From NCBI GenBank assembly GCA_002127295.1, contig NFUV01000001.1, positions 1,116,001 through 1,180,000 of the forward strand: a DNA stretch of 64,000 nucleotides. The letters are read 5' to 3'. A model generated the notes under the pieces. That model was not told the DNA's origin. It made no database searches and saw only the letters and a list, made by a program, of their open reading frames with translations. A program made the position numbers and the translations under genes. Positions 2 to 48,633 of the stretch are shown here, in pieces. Each line of letters begins with the position of its first letter. Positions within the stretch are counted from its first letter, which is position 1. The stretch is from Chitinophagaceae bacterium IBVUCB2. Its GTDB lineage: Bacteria; Bacteroidota; Bacteroidia; Chitinophagales; Chitinophagaceae.

Positions 2-451
2 ATTGGTGCTATCAATTCAAGAGAGCAATTAAATATCATTCAGAAATATATTGCAATCGGTAAAAAAGAAGGTGCGGAAATGTATGAAAGCAGTTGTGCC
101 TTACCCTCGAAAGGATTTTGGTGCAGGCCAACCATCTTTAGCAATGTGGCGCAAAGCAATCGTATAGCACAGGAAGAAATTTTTGGGCCAGTGTTATCTA
201 TTCTCACATTCCGTACAGATGATGAAGTAATTGAAAAAGCTAACAACTCACCTTATGGACTAAGTGCTGGTGTGTGGACGGATAAAGGTTCTAAGATTTT
301 CAATATGACAAAAAGAATGAGAGCCGGTGTAGTATGGGCAAATACATTCAACAAGTTCGATCCCTCTTCTCCATTCGGTGGCTATAAAGAAAGTGGGTTT
401 GGAAGAGAAGGTGGCTTGCATGGGTTGTCGGCGTATGTGAATATTGTTTAA
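2..451 (+). CDS. Aldehyde dehydrogenase, C-terminal part (cut by window start)
   Basis: The frame is open from the first complete codon at base 2, so the gene begins upstream of the window. What remains is the C-terminal portion of an NAD(P)-dependent aldehyde dehydrogenase. It shows the family motif EEIFGPVLS, the YGLSAGVWT stretch and the C-terminal PFGGYKESGFGREGG signature that forms part of the substrate pocket and oligomer interface. The catalytic Cys and Glu would lie upstream and cannot be seen. The stop codon (449-451) is followed at once by an AT-rich palindromic heptad repeat and then by a second ALDH-like gene on the same strand. The two probably work together (see the next gene). 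Substrate cannot be assigned. Confidence 0.93.
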   Translation: MGAINSREQLNIIQKYIAIGKKEGAEMYESSCALPSKGFWCRPTIFSNVAQSNRIAQEEIFGPVLSILTFRTDDEVIEKANNSPYGLSAGVWTDKGSKIFNMTKRMRAGVVWANTFNKFDPSSPFGGYKESGFGREGGLHGLSAYVNIV

Positions 452-523
452 GTAAAAAATCAAAAGTCAAAATTAAAAACACGCAGCTTTTGAATTTTGA
501 CTTTTAACTTTTGAATTTTTAAT
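451..523. repeat. AT-rich heptad palindrome between two ALDH genes
   Basis: Units with a 7-base period start at 451, 458, 465 and 472 (AGTA, AATC, AGTC, AATT, each followed by AAA). After a 6-base centre, complementary units start at 485, 492, 499, 506 and 513 (AGCT, GAAT, GACT, AACT, GAAT, each followed by TTT). The arms share a 13-base complementary core and could form a long hairpin. The first unit begins on the last base of the upstream stop codon and the repeat ends just before the next ATG at 525. The geometry matches the GC-richer heptads at 25843-26330, but no gene lies inside. Confidence 0.7.
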
Positions 524-524
524 T

Positions 525-25150: not shown

Positions 25151-25843
25151 ATGCAAGAGCACAAGTACTCAATTAAAGAGTGGTCAAAAGACGACAGGCC
25201 AAGAGAAAAACTACTCGCCACAGGTGCAGAAAACCTCAGCAATTCGGAACTATTGGCCATCCTAATACATAATGGCACCCGGCAGAAATCTGCAGTAGAT
25301 GTAGCCAAAGAGGTAATGAAGCTCGGGAAAGATAGCCTCGCTGAGTTAGGCAAACTTTCCATAAAAGAGCTGATGAAAATTAAGGGTATTGGCGAAGCAA
25401 AGGCCATCACCATAGTTGCTGCTCTCGAGTTAGGCAGAAGAAGGCAGGCTGGAGAAATCATGCATAAACCATTAGTCAGTTCCAGCAAGGATATTGCTGA
25501 TTTTTTGCAAACAAAACTAAAGGATTACCGGCATGAAGTATTTGCTGTACTCTTTCTAAACAGGGCTAATAAAATAAATCATTTTGAAGTTGTCAGCGAA
25601 GGTGGTATTACCGGAACAGTAGCCGACCCCAGAATAATTCTTCGCAAGGCATTAGAAGAAGATGCAGTAAATATTATTCTTTGCCACAATCACCCATCCG
25701 GCAGTTTAAAACCAAGCAAGGCCGATGAACAACTTACTCAAAAAATAAAACAAGCCGCCCTGTTTTTTGATATAACAGTACTCGACCATTTAATAGTAAG
25801 CGAAGATGGTTATTATAGTTTTGCAGATGAGGGAATATTATGA
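25151..25843 (+). CDS. radC: RadC-family JAB/MPN protein
   Basis: A 230-residue cytoplasmic protein of the RadC/YicR family. An N-terminal region (residues 1-95) begins IKEWSKDDRPREKLLATGAENLSNSELLAI and has a helix-hairpin-helix (LMKIKGIGEAKAITIVAALELG). The JAB/MPN metalloprotein domain has the full JAMM signature (HNHPSGSLKPSKAD; His, His, Asp spacing intact) and an upstream acidic residue. The family was once linked to DNA repair but its true activity is unsettled. The stop TGA overlaps the first unit of the heptad repeat that begins the S23 cassette. Confidence 0.94.
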   Translation: MQEHKYSIKEWSKDDRPREKLLATGAENLSNSELLAILIHNGTRQKSAVDVAKEVMKLGKDSLAELGKLSIKELMKIKGIGEAKAITIVAALELGRRRQAGEIMHKPLVSSSKDIADFLQTKLKDYRHEVFAVLFLNRANKINHFEVVSEGGITGTVADPRIILRKALEEDAVNIILCHNHPSGSLKPSKADEQLTQKIKQAALFFDITVLDHLIVSEDGYYSFADEGIL

Positions 25844-25877
25844 GTCGGAAGTTTGGAGTCGTTAGTCGGGAGATGGG
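25843..25877 (+). repeat. Left heptad array of the S23 cassette
   Basis: Units start at 25843, 25850, 25857, 25864 and 25871: AGTC, AGTT, AGTC, AGTC, AGAT, each plus three bases rich in G and T. The first unit begins on the final A of the radC TGA. Confidence 0.75.
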
Positions 25878-25907
25878 AAAGTCATTAAAGTAGTAAATAA
25901 TTTTTTT

Positions 25908-26270
25908 ATGGGTTACTATAAAGATTTGCTTGCTTTTAAAAAAGGATACGAGTTGGCGATGGAGATTTTTAGTATTAGTAAAAGATTTCCGGCAGAAGAA
26001 AAATATTCGCTTATTGACCAGATTAGAAGATCTTCCCGATCTGTTTGTACAAATTTGGTAGAAGCTTATAGAAGAAGGCGATATAAAGATTATTTTATAA
26101 GTAAATTAAATGATTGTGAAACGGAGAATGCTGAAACCCAAGTATGGCTCGATTTCTCCAATGATTGTAAATATATTACTCAGGAAGAATACAATCATCT
26201 CTCTTCAAAAAACGATGAAGTGGGAAAACTAATCTGGTATATGATTAATAACCCTCAAAAATTTAGCTAA
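25908..26270 (+). CDS. S23-type four-helix-bundle protein
   Basis: A 120-residue protein of the S23/four-helix-bundle family. It has KDLLAFKKGYELAMEIFSISKRFPAEEKYSLIDQIRRSSRSVCTNLVEAYRRRRYKDYF, then an acidic helix (NDCETENAETQVWLDFS) and a final helix. The pattern 'L..QirRs..Si..NI.Eg..R' is the family hallmark. Members include proteins encoded by intervening sequences in bacterial 23S rRNA and are related to the Avd accessory protein of diversity-generating retroelements. They form pentamers and are thought to bind nucleic acid. No reverse transcriptase or variable repeat is nearby, so a retroelement role is not supported here. The gene is the sole cargo between inverted heptad arrays. Confidence 0.92.
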   Translation: MGYYKDLLAFKKGYELAMEIFSISKRFPAEEKYSLIDQIRRSSRSVCTNLVEAYRRRRYKDYFISKLNDCETENAETQVWLDFSNDCKYITQEEYNHLSSKNDEVGKLIWYMINNPQKFS

Positions 26271-26295
26271 AGAAGAAAGCATAAATGAAGGGGCC

Positions 26296-26330
26296 GACTC
26301 CTAACTCCTGACTAACGACTCCCGACTAAT
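26296..26330 (-). repeat. Right heptad array of the S23 cassette
   Basis: Plus-strand units start at 26296, 26303, 26310, 26317 and 26324: GACT, AACT, GACT, GACT, GACT, each plus three bases. It is inverted relative to the left array and reaches into the stop codon of the DUF3467 gene on the minus strand. Confidence 0.75.
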
Positions 26331-26638
26331 TATGCTTGCGCTGTAGGACCTCCAAAATTCATTGGCAATTGTATTTCTTCCAGGTCTTTAATGGTTCCAT
26401 TGATAGCCTCATACTTCTGTATATTCTCTGTCATAGCTTTCATAAAGCGTTTGGCATGTTGCGGTGTCAAAATAATTCTCGACTTCACTTTACTCTTAGG
26501 TGTGCCGGGCATAACATTTACAAAATCGATTACAAATTCTGCATGTGAGTGAGTGATGATTGCAAGATTAGCATATGTTCCTTCTGCTACTTCTTCTGAA
26601 ATTTCGATATTTAACTGGTTGGGTTGTTGCTCTGTCAT
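26330..26638 (-). CDS. DUF3467-domain protein
   Basis: A 102-residue cytoplasmic protein matching DUF3467 along its whole length: NQLNIEISEEVAEGTYANLAIITHSHAEFVIDFVNVMPG, then VKSRIILTPQHAKRFMKAMTENIQKYE. The family is small, conserved in Bacteroidota and of unknown function. The gene is monocistronic, with an upstream terminator at 26689-26722 isolating it from the sus operon. Confidence 0.93.
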   Translation of the reverse strand: MTEQQPNQLNIEISEEVAEGTYANLAIITHSHAEFVIDFVNVMPGTPKSKVKSRIILTPQHAKRFMKAMTENIQKYEAINGTIKDLEEIQLPMNFGGPTAQA

Positions 26639-48598: not shown

Positions 48599-48633
48599 GT
48601 CTTACGACTCATGACTCCAGACTAAAGACTCCT
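48599..48633 (-). repeat. Five heptad units next to the tonB stop codon
   Basis: Plus-strand units start at 48599, 48606, 48613, 48620 and 48627 (GTCT, then four GACT, each plus three bases). Four bases follow before the tonB stop codon at 48638-48640. In tonB sense they read as AGTC units just after the stop, as at prs. Confidence 0.65.

Follow-up and report, generated by a model that had tools for sequence, protein, structure and literature searches.

S23 four-helix-bundle genes between inverted heptad arrays: a recurrent cassette suggested by the radC/DUF3467 junction of Chitinophagaceae bacterium IBVUCB2

Introduction

What is the role of a gene of the S23 (23S_rRNA_IVP) family that is placed between two mirrored arrays of seven-base repeats? 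The question is raised by a stretch of 64,000 nucleotides from Chitinophagaceae bacterium IBVUCB2 (contig NFUV01000001.1, positions 1,116,001 to 1,180,000), referred to here as the window, where radC and a DUF3467 gene flank such a gene. A preliminary description of the locus regarded it as an intergenic relative of the intervening sequences (IVS) of 23S rRNA, either a small non-autonomous element or an RNA-processed cassette, whose protein may recognise the heptad stem. The analysis described here covers the window, its own genome (G000), a genus sample of 42 genomes and S23 loci of other phyla. A widespread cassette, consisting of an S23 gene and of inverted arrays, is present in the window in one copy; it is probable, if not securely so, that the arrays are the binding sites of the cassette's own S23 pentamer.

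The Cassette of the Window

The radC stop codon (25841-25843) and the end of the convergent DUF3467 gene (26330) are separated by 486 bases. The upstream arm (25843..25878, plus strand), read directly on the C-poor strand, consists of five heptads of the form AGTC, AGTT or AGAT plus three bases (AGTCGGA, AGTTTGG, AGTCGTT, AGTCGGG, and AGATGGG), with a strict period of 7 and an exact AGTC in three of the five; its first A (25843) is the final base of the radC TGA stop. The S23 gene follows after a spacer of 29 nt to its ATG and encodes 120 amino acids (25908..26270, plus strand). A second spacer of 25 nt leads from its stop to the downstream arm (26296..26329, minus strand), also read directly, where five inverted heptads begin at 26296, 26303, 26310, 26317, and 26324 with GACT, AACT, GACT, GACT, and GACT, four of them exact; the period-7 segment spans 26297-26327, and the array ends 2 nt short of the DUF3467 stop (26330). 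The five heptads on the left and the five inverted ones on the right that the preliminary description had reported around the S23 reading frame are therefore really there. Its picture of a gap filled from stop codon to stop codon does not hold literally, the two spacers being part of the gap, and its arm match of about 23 of 28 bases, made by hand, becomes 29 nt at 83% complementarity when the best pairing is computed.

The protein belongs to the family without ambiguity, matching PF05635 at 104.6 bits (cut-off 33.8) and TIGR02436 at 95.8 bits. Its AlphaFold model is a four-helix bundle with a pLDDT of 96.4, whose best Foldseek matches are 2gsc and 2rld (TMq 0.79-0.89 to their chains), two crystallised relatives with five chains per entry, followed by Avd (4dwl); the ribonucleoprotein of a diversity-generating retroelement (DGR), 8ube, is also a fold match.

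Inverted Arrays at S23 Loci

S23 genes are present in 30 of the 42 genus genomes, with 0-16 copies each and 210 matches in total. Arms were read in 160-nt flanks at 110 of these 210 loci, mostly the better-scoring ones, after a duplicate (L007) and a locus with a short flank (L086) had been dropped from 112. When inverted arms are defined by an inverted match score of at least 11 between the two flanks of a locus, they are found at 91/110 S23 loci and at 19/330 flank pairs taken from different loci. The control made of 704 non-S23 open reading frames (ORFs), drawn from two 400-kb samples and the window, gives inverted flanks in 27, flanks periodic on both sides in 26, and both features in 7, one of which turned out to be a hidden S23 gene. 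The preliminary description had named beforehand, as the result that would undo it, heptads no more frequent at S23 genes than at other genes; they are far commoner there (91/110 against 27/704).

Period 7, followed by 14 and 8, stands out in the 110 loci, 17 of 21 matches being reached in 30 upstream and 35 downstream flanks, whereas periods 3-6, 9-13, and 15 reach this level in 0-2 flanks each. The segment score exceeds the 95% point of shuffled flanks in 96 upstream and 81 downstream flanks and on both sides in 76/110 loci; these thresholds come from mononucleotide shuffles, and the ORF control stands in for a stricter one. Where both flanks are periodic, upstream and downstream arm have the same period in 75 of the 76 loci (60 at period 7 and 15 at period 8). 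Arrays range from 2 to 18 units, and the arms of cassettes mostly have 4-5.

The same arrangement is met outside the genus. Among the best 80 of at least 590 loci retrieved from many phyla with one peptide pattern (L250 being omitted for its short flank), inverted arms are found at 57/79, against 11/237 in the control. Upstream flanks have period 7 in 45 cases and period 8 in 13, downstream flanks in 49 and 11, and other periods are seen in 0-3; L258 adds one to the upstream count of every period, since its flank on that side consists of N. S23 genes with arms occur in Bacteroidota, Planctomycetales, Deltaproteobacteria, Clostridia, Omnitrophica, Acidobacteriales, Betaproteobacteria, Mesorhizobium, Cloacimonadota, and the cyanobacterium Phormidium. 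With one S23 query, matches were obtained in 32 of 72,556 plasmid records and in none of 50,697 phage records, so that, as far as one query can show, plasmids and phages are not the usual carriers of S23 cassettes. Copies on two Calothrix plasmids were tried as markers of the cassette boundaries and discarded, because the surrounding annotated blocks look alike and the cassette ends cannot be read.

The cassettes also have a preferred orientation. The upstream gene is co-directional with S23 in 92/105 loci, compared with 447/665 for genes overall (Fisher p 1e-5). No more than 15 nt separate the upstream arm from the preceding gene in 60/92 cases and the downstream arm from the following gene in 52/78, which indicates that cassettes tend to fill gene-to-gene gaps along the upstream transcript.

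A few other ORFs are bracketed by arrays as well (6/326 non-S23 ORFs in G012, the hidden S23 gene removed). AGCTATC-type heptad arrays bracket the gene at L192 (G012:C3:297299-297954), in an operon which, from its protein sequences, looks like a ribosomal-protein operon.

Repeat Unit, Period, and S23 Lineage

The units differ among loci. AGTCGGG, AGTTCGG, TAAGTTA, GACCGTT, GTGAATG, and GTTGCTG have been seen at period 7, and GTTTAAAG or GTTGACAG at period 8. The 5' arm is C-poor, with 7% C and more G than C in 86/94, and the 3' arm mirrors it (76/81). The two arms of one locus resemble each other (similarity 0.65) much more than arms of different loci (0.12).

The variation follows the protein. 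Unit similarity drops with S23 distance (Mantel r 0.38-0.49 over 107 proteins, L046, L047, and L069 being additionally omitted), and none of 2000 permutations reaches this value. On a tree of 205 S23 proteins, from which 35 of 240 without a clear period were omitted, the period label changes 23 times, against 34-43 in 300 shuffles. Arm similarity between close S23 pairs is 0.57 for the 71 syntenic pairs and 0.34 for the 113 pairs without homologous neighbours, compared with 0.116 for random pairs. Close pairs thus keep their arm similarity without shared neighbours, which argues that gene and arms travel together. A mutual-information scan of the 205 proteins for residues setting period 7 or 8 gave no clear candidate.

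Some S23 arms (L031 and L038) hold TTTAGGG-like units, which have the same letters as plant telomere repeats; this likeness is probably a coincidence of C-poor heptads.

Presence, Absence, and Replacement at Fixed Sites

The left neighbour of the window cassette is radC (25151..25843, plus strand, PF04002), transcribed in the same direction as S23, and the right neighbour is the convergent DUF3467 gene (26330..26638, minus strand, PF11950). Among 30 DUF3467 loci read, 27 junctions with radC, counting that of the window, could be scored. An S23 cassette follows radC in 8 of them; 14 are of the empty type with 3-40 bp, and the remaining 5 contain 89-146 bp and no S23, with mirrored short repeats seen by eye in one (G009). 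The empty junction that the preliminary description had proposed to look for is accordingly found, in keeping with an intergenic IVS relative that comes and goes. The filled junctions are not all alike. The S23 proteins of G012 and G023 are 82% and 70% identical to that of the window and are flanked by AGTC arms, whereas those of G001 and G026 are just 28% identical and are flanked by AGTTC arms; the DUF3467 proteins of these two genomes have 97% identity to that of the window. G017 is of the same sort, with an S23 of 29% identity and a unit other than that of the window. Two markedly dissimilar cassettes have therefore occupied the radC/DUF3467 site, even among close relatives.

A second site is offered by the nuoC-nuoD junction of Mesorhizobium, for which 119 genomes were searched and 117 matched, 56 of them with one listed piece only and unscored. 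A 463-503 bp S23 cassette is carried between the two genes in 28 genomes. At 29 of the 33 scorable split sites the pieces abut (distance -9 to +25), and the two that were read are confirmed to be empty; the remaining four comprise 3 with other ORFs and 1 with an S23 gene that is partly deleted. Where the cassette is absent, the stop of one gene joins the start of the next directly; where it is present, at least three unit types occur. Comparison of filled sites with the two empty ones read gives no evident target-site duplication. The other inserts (G059, G111, and G107) were considered as solo hairpins and set aside, since by eye they look like unrelated ORFs. With small inserts of this sort (L308-L310, pieces 212-385 bp apart), which look like ORFs without relation to S23, the junction is a possible hot spot of small insertions.

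Where omega can be measured, the S23 gene is under strong purifying selection: it is 0.081 (22 pairs) and 0.067 (105 pairs) for the S23 gene at nuoC-nuoD and 0.13 for one pair of the genus, and the window's own AGTC clade gave no usable pair. The term small non-autonomous element, used in the preliminary description, may undersell a gene so constrained (omega 0.07-0.08 in Mesorhizobium).

Eighteen genes of the 23S_rRNA_IVP family are described in cas loci (PMC3936711). A four helix bundle gene is reported from two Flavobacterium columnare strains, in both of them in the gap between the guanylate kinase and nicotinate-nucleotide adenylyltransferase genes (PMC5524665).

Arrays Without an S23 Gene

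Arrays of the same kind are also found on their own. Three AGTC units in tandem, AGTCNNNAGTCNNNAGTC, occur 16 times (11 arrays) in G000 and once for the reversed control, so that the AGTC unit is a repeat of its own genome, mostly away from S23; 10 of the 11 arrays are not at an S23 gene, and three of the matches adjoin an inverted partner (L003, L012, and L016). In the window, a pattern scan gives a solo AGTC-type array without S23 at 48606..48630 (minus strand; G000:C1:1164606-1164630), which adjoins a gene end. A solo inverted pair of period-7 arrays with a unit other than AGTC lies at 450..524 (450-479 and 488-524), between co-directional ORFs and without S23. Across 400 kb, intergenic arrays number 7 of period 7 and none of period 8 in G000, and 22 and 8 in G012, with 0-3 for other periods; 24 of the 30 listed period-7/8 arrays of G012 are away from annotated S23 matches, and at least one further pair flanks a hidden S23 gene.

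The abundance of the arrays can be considerable. Three GTBAAT units in tandem give 96 (overlapping) matches in G009 and 95 in G030, with none for the reversed controls, and three AGTC units give up to 183 matches per genus genome, with 0-25 for the reversed control. In G009, 20 stretches were read, picked mainly where matches on opposite strands lay close. In 14 of them both arms are close together, always with the C-poor arm first and the mirror arm after it, and by eye the hairpin loops of these 14 pairs are short and mostly differ; five of the rest have one arm and one is spread out. These array pairs are hairpins like those of repetitive extragenic palindromic (REP) sequences. A role as bidirectional terminators was considered and not retained, the solo arrays of G012 lying between convergent genes in 4/24 cases against a background of 21/192, with no clear preference.

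The number of arrays elsewhere in a genome is related to the S23 genes that it carries. For GTBAAT the median is 19.5 in genomes with a sampled S23 of matching arms and 0 in those without (p 0.0007), and for AGTC 22.5 and 2.5 (p 0.02); in G004, G015, and G032 the arrays subtracted because they stand at S23 genes are a small estimate, uncounted. The 12 genomes without S23 lack both AGTC and GTBAAT arrays (12/12).

A Proposed Mechanism and the Points Against It

The cassette could work as follows. Read-through from the upstream gene would transcribe it, and the S23 homopentamer would bind its cognate unit on the C-poor strand, perhaps with one subunit per unit. The bound form would most simply be single-stranded RNA or DNA, because steps of 7 or 8 nt do not stay on one face of the B-form helix and the nearly C-free 5' arm cannot fold on itself. 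The arms would be bound by the S23 protein of their own cassette, which would serve autoregulation and the movement or upkeep of the cassette; dispersed arrays would be non-autonomous sites served in trans, as REP sequences are by REP-associated tyrosine transposases (RAYTs). A copy of this cassette inserted into an rRNA gene would be what is known as the 23S rRNA IVS. The earlier suggestion that the protein may recognise the heptads is plausible.

A wider reading is possible, though we regard it as doubtful. S23 proteins would be pan-bacterial toroidal pentamers that read 7-/8-nt arrays by a re-programmable code, one unit per subunit, in the manner of a TRAP-like ring, with cognate arrays both at the gene and in a genome-wide trans network. 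Cyanobacterial and Bacteroidota heptamers, TAACTGA repeats, and the rRNA IVS would be parts of one system, and Avd would be a derived member that a reverse transcriptase took into service.

Several observations weigh against recognition of the arrays by S23. The range of 2 to 18 units per array makes five units for five subunits merely suggestive. Clear inverted arms are absent at 19/110 genus loci and 22/79 loci elsewhere. The arms are genetically linked to S23 and the compared genomes are related; covariation could thus reflect joint descent without recognition. We know of no enzymatic motif in S23, and no binding data for it were found. As to the action in trans, genome size is a confounder, most genomes without S23 being small (1.5-2.6 Mb), and seven genomes have 28-146 AGTC matches and no sampled S23 with AGTC arms (G001, G009, G015, G026, G032, G034, and G041, with 5/7, 13/16, 5/10, 3/4, 5/14, 4/10, and 5/9 of their S23 genes sampled). 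In five of these seven an AGTC-type S23 was sought and none was found among partly sampled S23 genes; the same search did find one in G004. G001 also has 32 GTBAAT matches without a matching sampled S23. In G012, the solo arrays are overall no nearer to resident S23 arms than to foreign ones (0.34 compared with 0.28-0.36). Strict specificity of solo arrays for the resident S23 was therefore abandoned, the aggregate test of G012 being negative and the genome-level test positive with clear exceptions.

Alternative Explanations

The arms can pair, and an alternative explanation starts from this property: the paired arms of a read-through transcript would be cut by RNase III, freeing the host mRNA, and S23 would be cargo or an accessory. 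The predicted RNA fold of the window cassette indeed closes on the arms as a stem (z -7.5), none of 100 shuffles being as stable; the excess of co-directional upstream genes (92/105 against 447/665) fits a processed transcript, and a precedent exists in Coxiella, where the 28-bp stem of an IVS with heptamers before S23p is cut by RNase III (PMC4990558). However, the order of unit variants in one arm is not matched in the other beyond unit identity (61 loci, observed 16.3, shuffled 15.6, Wilcoxon p 0.13), and in dispersed pairs the variants are mismatched between arms by eye. Selection for an exact hairpin was discarded on this negative unit-shuffle test, and the results do not support the stem itself as the object of selection. 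The stem-processed cassette of the preliminary description is partly supported, in that the arms can pair in RNA while their unit order is unmatched. Moreover, pairing alone needs neither a period of 7 or 8 nt nor a unit that tracks the protein. Recognition by the protein is preferred to stem pairing because the arms share unit and period and not order, and because periods follow the protein tree; processing as the main role is unlikely.

The S23 genes might instead land in ordinary intergenic repeats or hairpins that have a life of their own. Most AGTC arrays of G000 (10/11) and most listed period-7/8 arrays of G012 (24/30) are indeed away from annotated S23 genes, some genomes are AGTC-rich without a matching sampled S23, and a few other ORFs are bracketed too (6/326). 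This explanation is already strained by the contrast between 91/110 S23 loci and 27/704 other ORFs, by unit and period that follow the S23 tree, and by the 12 S23-less genomes without either array type tested, and it is the least probable of those considered. It is decidedly unlikely, too, that another enzyme (a Y1 transposase/RAYT, a GxxExxY nuclease of the PD-(D/E)XK type, or a reverse transcriptase) makes and spreads the arrays with S23 as its specificity subunit, in the way that Avd serves the DGR reverse transcriptase. The fold matches to 4dwl and 8ube agree with such a role, and PDDEXK_3 (GxxExxY) is found in 24/42 genomes, all of which also have S23, with inverted repeats bracketing 20/28 of its loci against 6/84 in the control. 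However, periodic arrays on both sides occur at 2/28 PDDEXK_3 loci, 6 of the 30 S23 genomes are without PDDEXK_3, and a Y1_Tnp match is lacking in G000, G004, G026, and G029, all of which have arrays. The co-occurrence with PD-(D/E)XK is a lead only. PDDEXK_3 genes were noted in G000 at G000:C1:2068936-2069286 and 2076481-2076822 (L435 and L459) and at the genus loci L432-L461, some with 8-nt-like units such as CGCAAAGA, and a PDDEXK_3 locus is possibly a sister cassette with a nuclease fold.

Recognition by S23 of its own arrays, if true, would mean that nature offers many variants of a small, single-domain reader of nucleic acids whose code changes, the target of each variant being encoded next to it. 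It is also a candidate answer to three questions, namely the function of the "hypothetical" S23/IVP proteins, the binder of cyanobacterial and Bacteroidota heptamers, and the origin of rRNA intervening sequences.

Comparison With Known Systems

The IVS of Coxiella burnetii rRNA is among the closest known systems. According to Warrier et al. (PMC4990558), tandem heptamers lie right before S23p and vary in number among strains, and a relative is a toroidal homopentamer (after Lin et al. 2006). The window cassette shares with it the protein family, an S23 ORF between terminal inverted repeats, and upstream heptamers, and its terminal repeats are likewise pairable (29 nt at 83%, fold z -7.5). In contrast to the IVS, it lies between the protein genes radC and DUF3467 and not in 23S rRNA, and it has arrays on both sides. 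The Coxiella ORF is decaying in the view of the authors (PMC4990558), whereas the S23 of Mesorhizobium is under purifying selection, and the heptamers are not generalised beyond Coxiella in the available part of that paper.

TAACTGA arrays have been described in Beggiatoaceae, cyanobacteria, and Bacteroidetes, and a binding protein was sought, S1, Csp, and CsrA being proposed (MacGregor 2015, PMC4679880). They resemble the present arrays as intergenic heptamers of patchy distribution over some of the same phyla. Three tandem copies are most frequent, among 194 cyanobacteria, in G264 (464), G266 (323), G300 (174), G341 (98), and G326 (74), with reversed controls at 0. S23 was searched in 24 cyanobacterial genomes and part of the matches was read, some of the resulting 66 loci not being cyanobacterial; more than one TAACTGA is present in the flanks of only 4 of these 66 loci, those of G264, G266, G300, and G326. 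The gene is intact in the first three, and in G326 it is a remnant under the family cut-off. In G264 and G266 the unit is in the downstream arm only, while the upstream arm is mirrored and differs from it by one base; two S23 loci were read in G341, and neither has it. The binders proposed in the part of MacGregor 2015 (PMC4679880) consulted do not include S23, whereas here three S23 genes and one remnant, in four of the five richest genomes, are flanked by the repeat.

As regards the Avd protein of DGRs, the likeness concerns the fold (4dwl and 8ube) and the fact that Avd is a partner of a nucleic-acid enzyme (PMC10053308). The window protein differs in scoring 43 bits with the DivGenRetAVD model, under its cut-off of 80, which places it outside the Avd equivalogs. 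Its neighbours are radC and DUF3467, with no template/variable repeat pair known, and no search was aimed at reverse transcriptases.

Period-7 intergenic arrays are known in Nostocales as short tandemly repeated repetitive (STRR) sequences, the cyanobacterial heptanucleotide repeats. Nostoc and Phormidium S23 loci with period-7 arms resemble them by period. As regards miniature inverted-repeat transposable elements (MITEs) of DNA transposons, copies of which share their interior, the loops of the 14 array pairs of G009 mostly differ by eye, and no target-site duplication is evident at nuoC-nuoD.

In REP/RAYT systems the repeat, a conserved palindrome, brackets its associated gene, which encodes an HUH transposase, and dispersed inward pairs occur in the genome. 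Likewise, S23 is bracketed by its repeat and inward pairs are dispersed; in contrast, S23 is a four-helix bundle and not an HUH transposase, and its tandem 7-/8-nt arrays have a changing unit. A RAYT as the maker of the arrays is unsupported, given the array-bearing genomes without Y1_Tnp and the Y1 loci of the genus, of which 1/26 has periodic flanks on both sides and 9/26 inverted flanks; the elements do not seem to need a Y1 transposase for their movement. At L410, L411, L422, and L430, in genomes that also hold S23 arrays, Y1 transposase genes are accompanied by CCCCGAAGGGG- or CCCCGAATGGGG-type inverted hairpins, an arrangement that resembles a classical REP/RAYT system.

In the open-licence PubMed Central (PMC) literature, preprints and subscription papers excluded, no paper tying S23 genes in general to flanking arrays was found. 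The nearest known kinds, IVS, REP/RAYT, and Avd, each fail a tested defining feature, and the cassette is therefore taken as a new class. The present results suggest a widespread and overlooked partnership of the S23 family with short repeats scattered through the genome.

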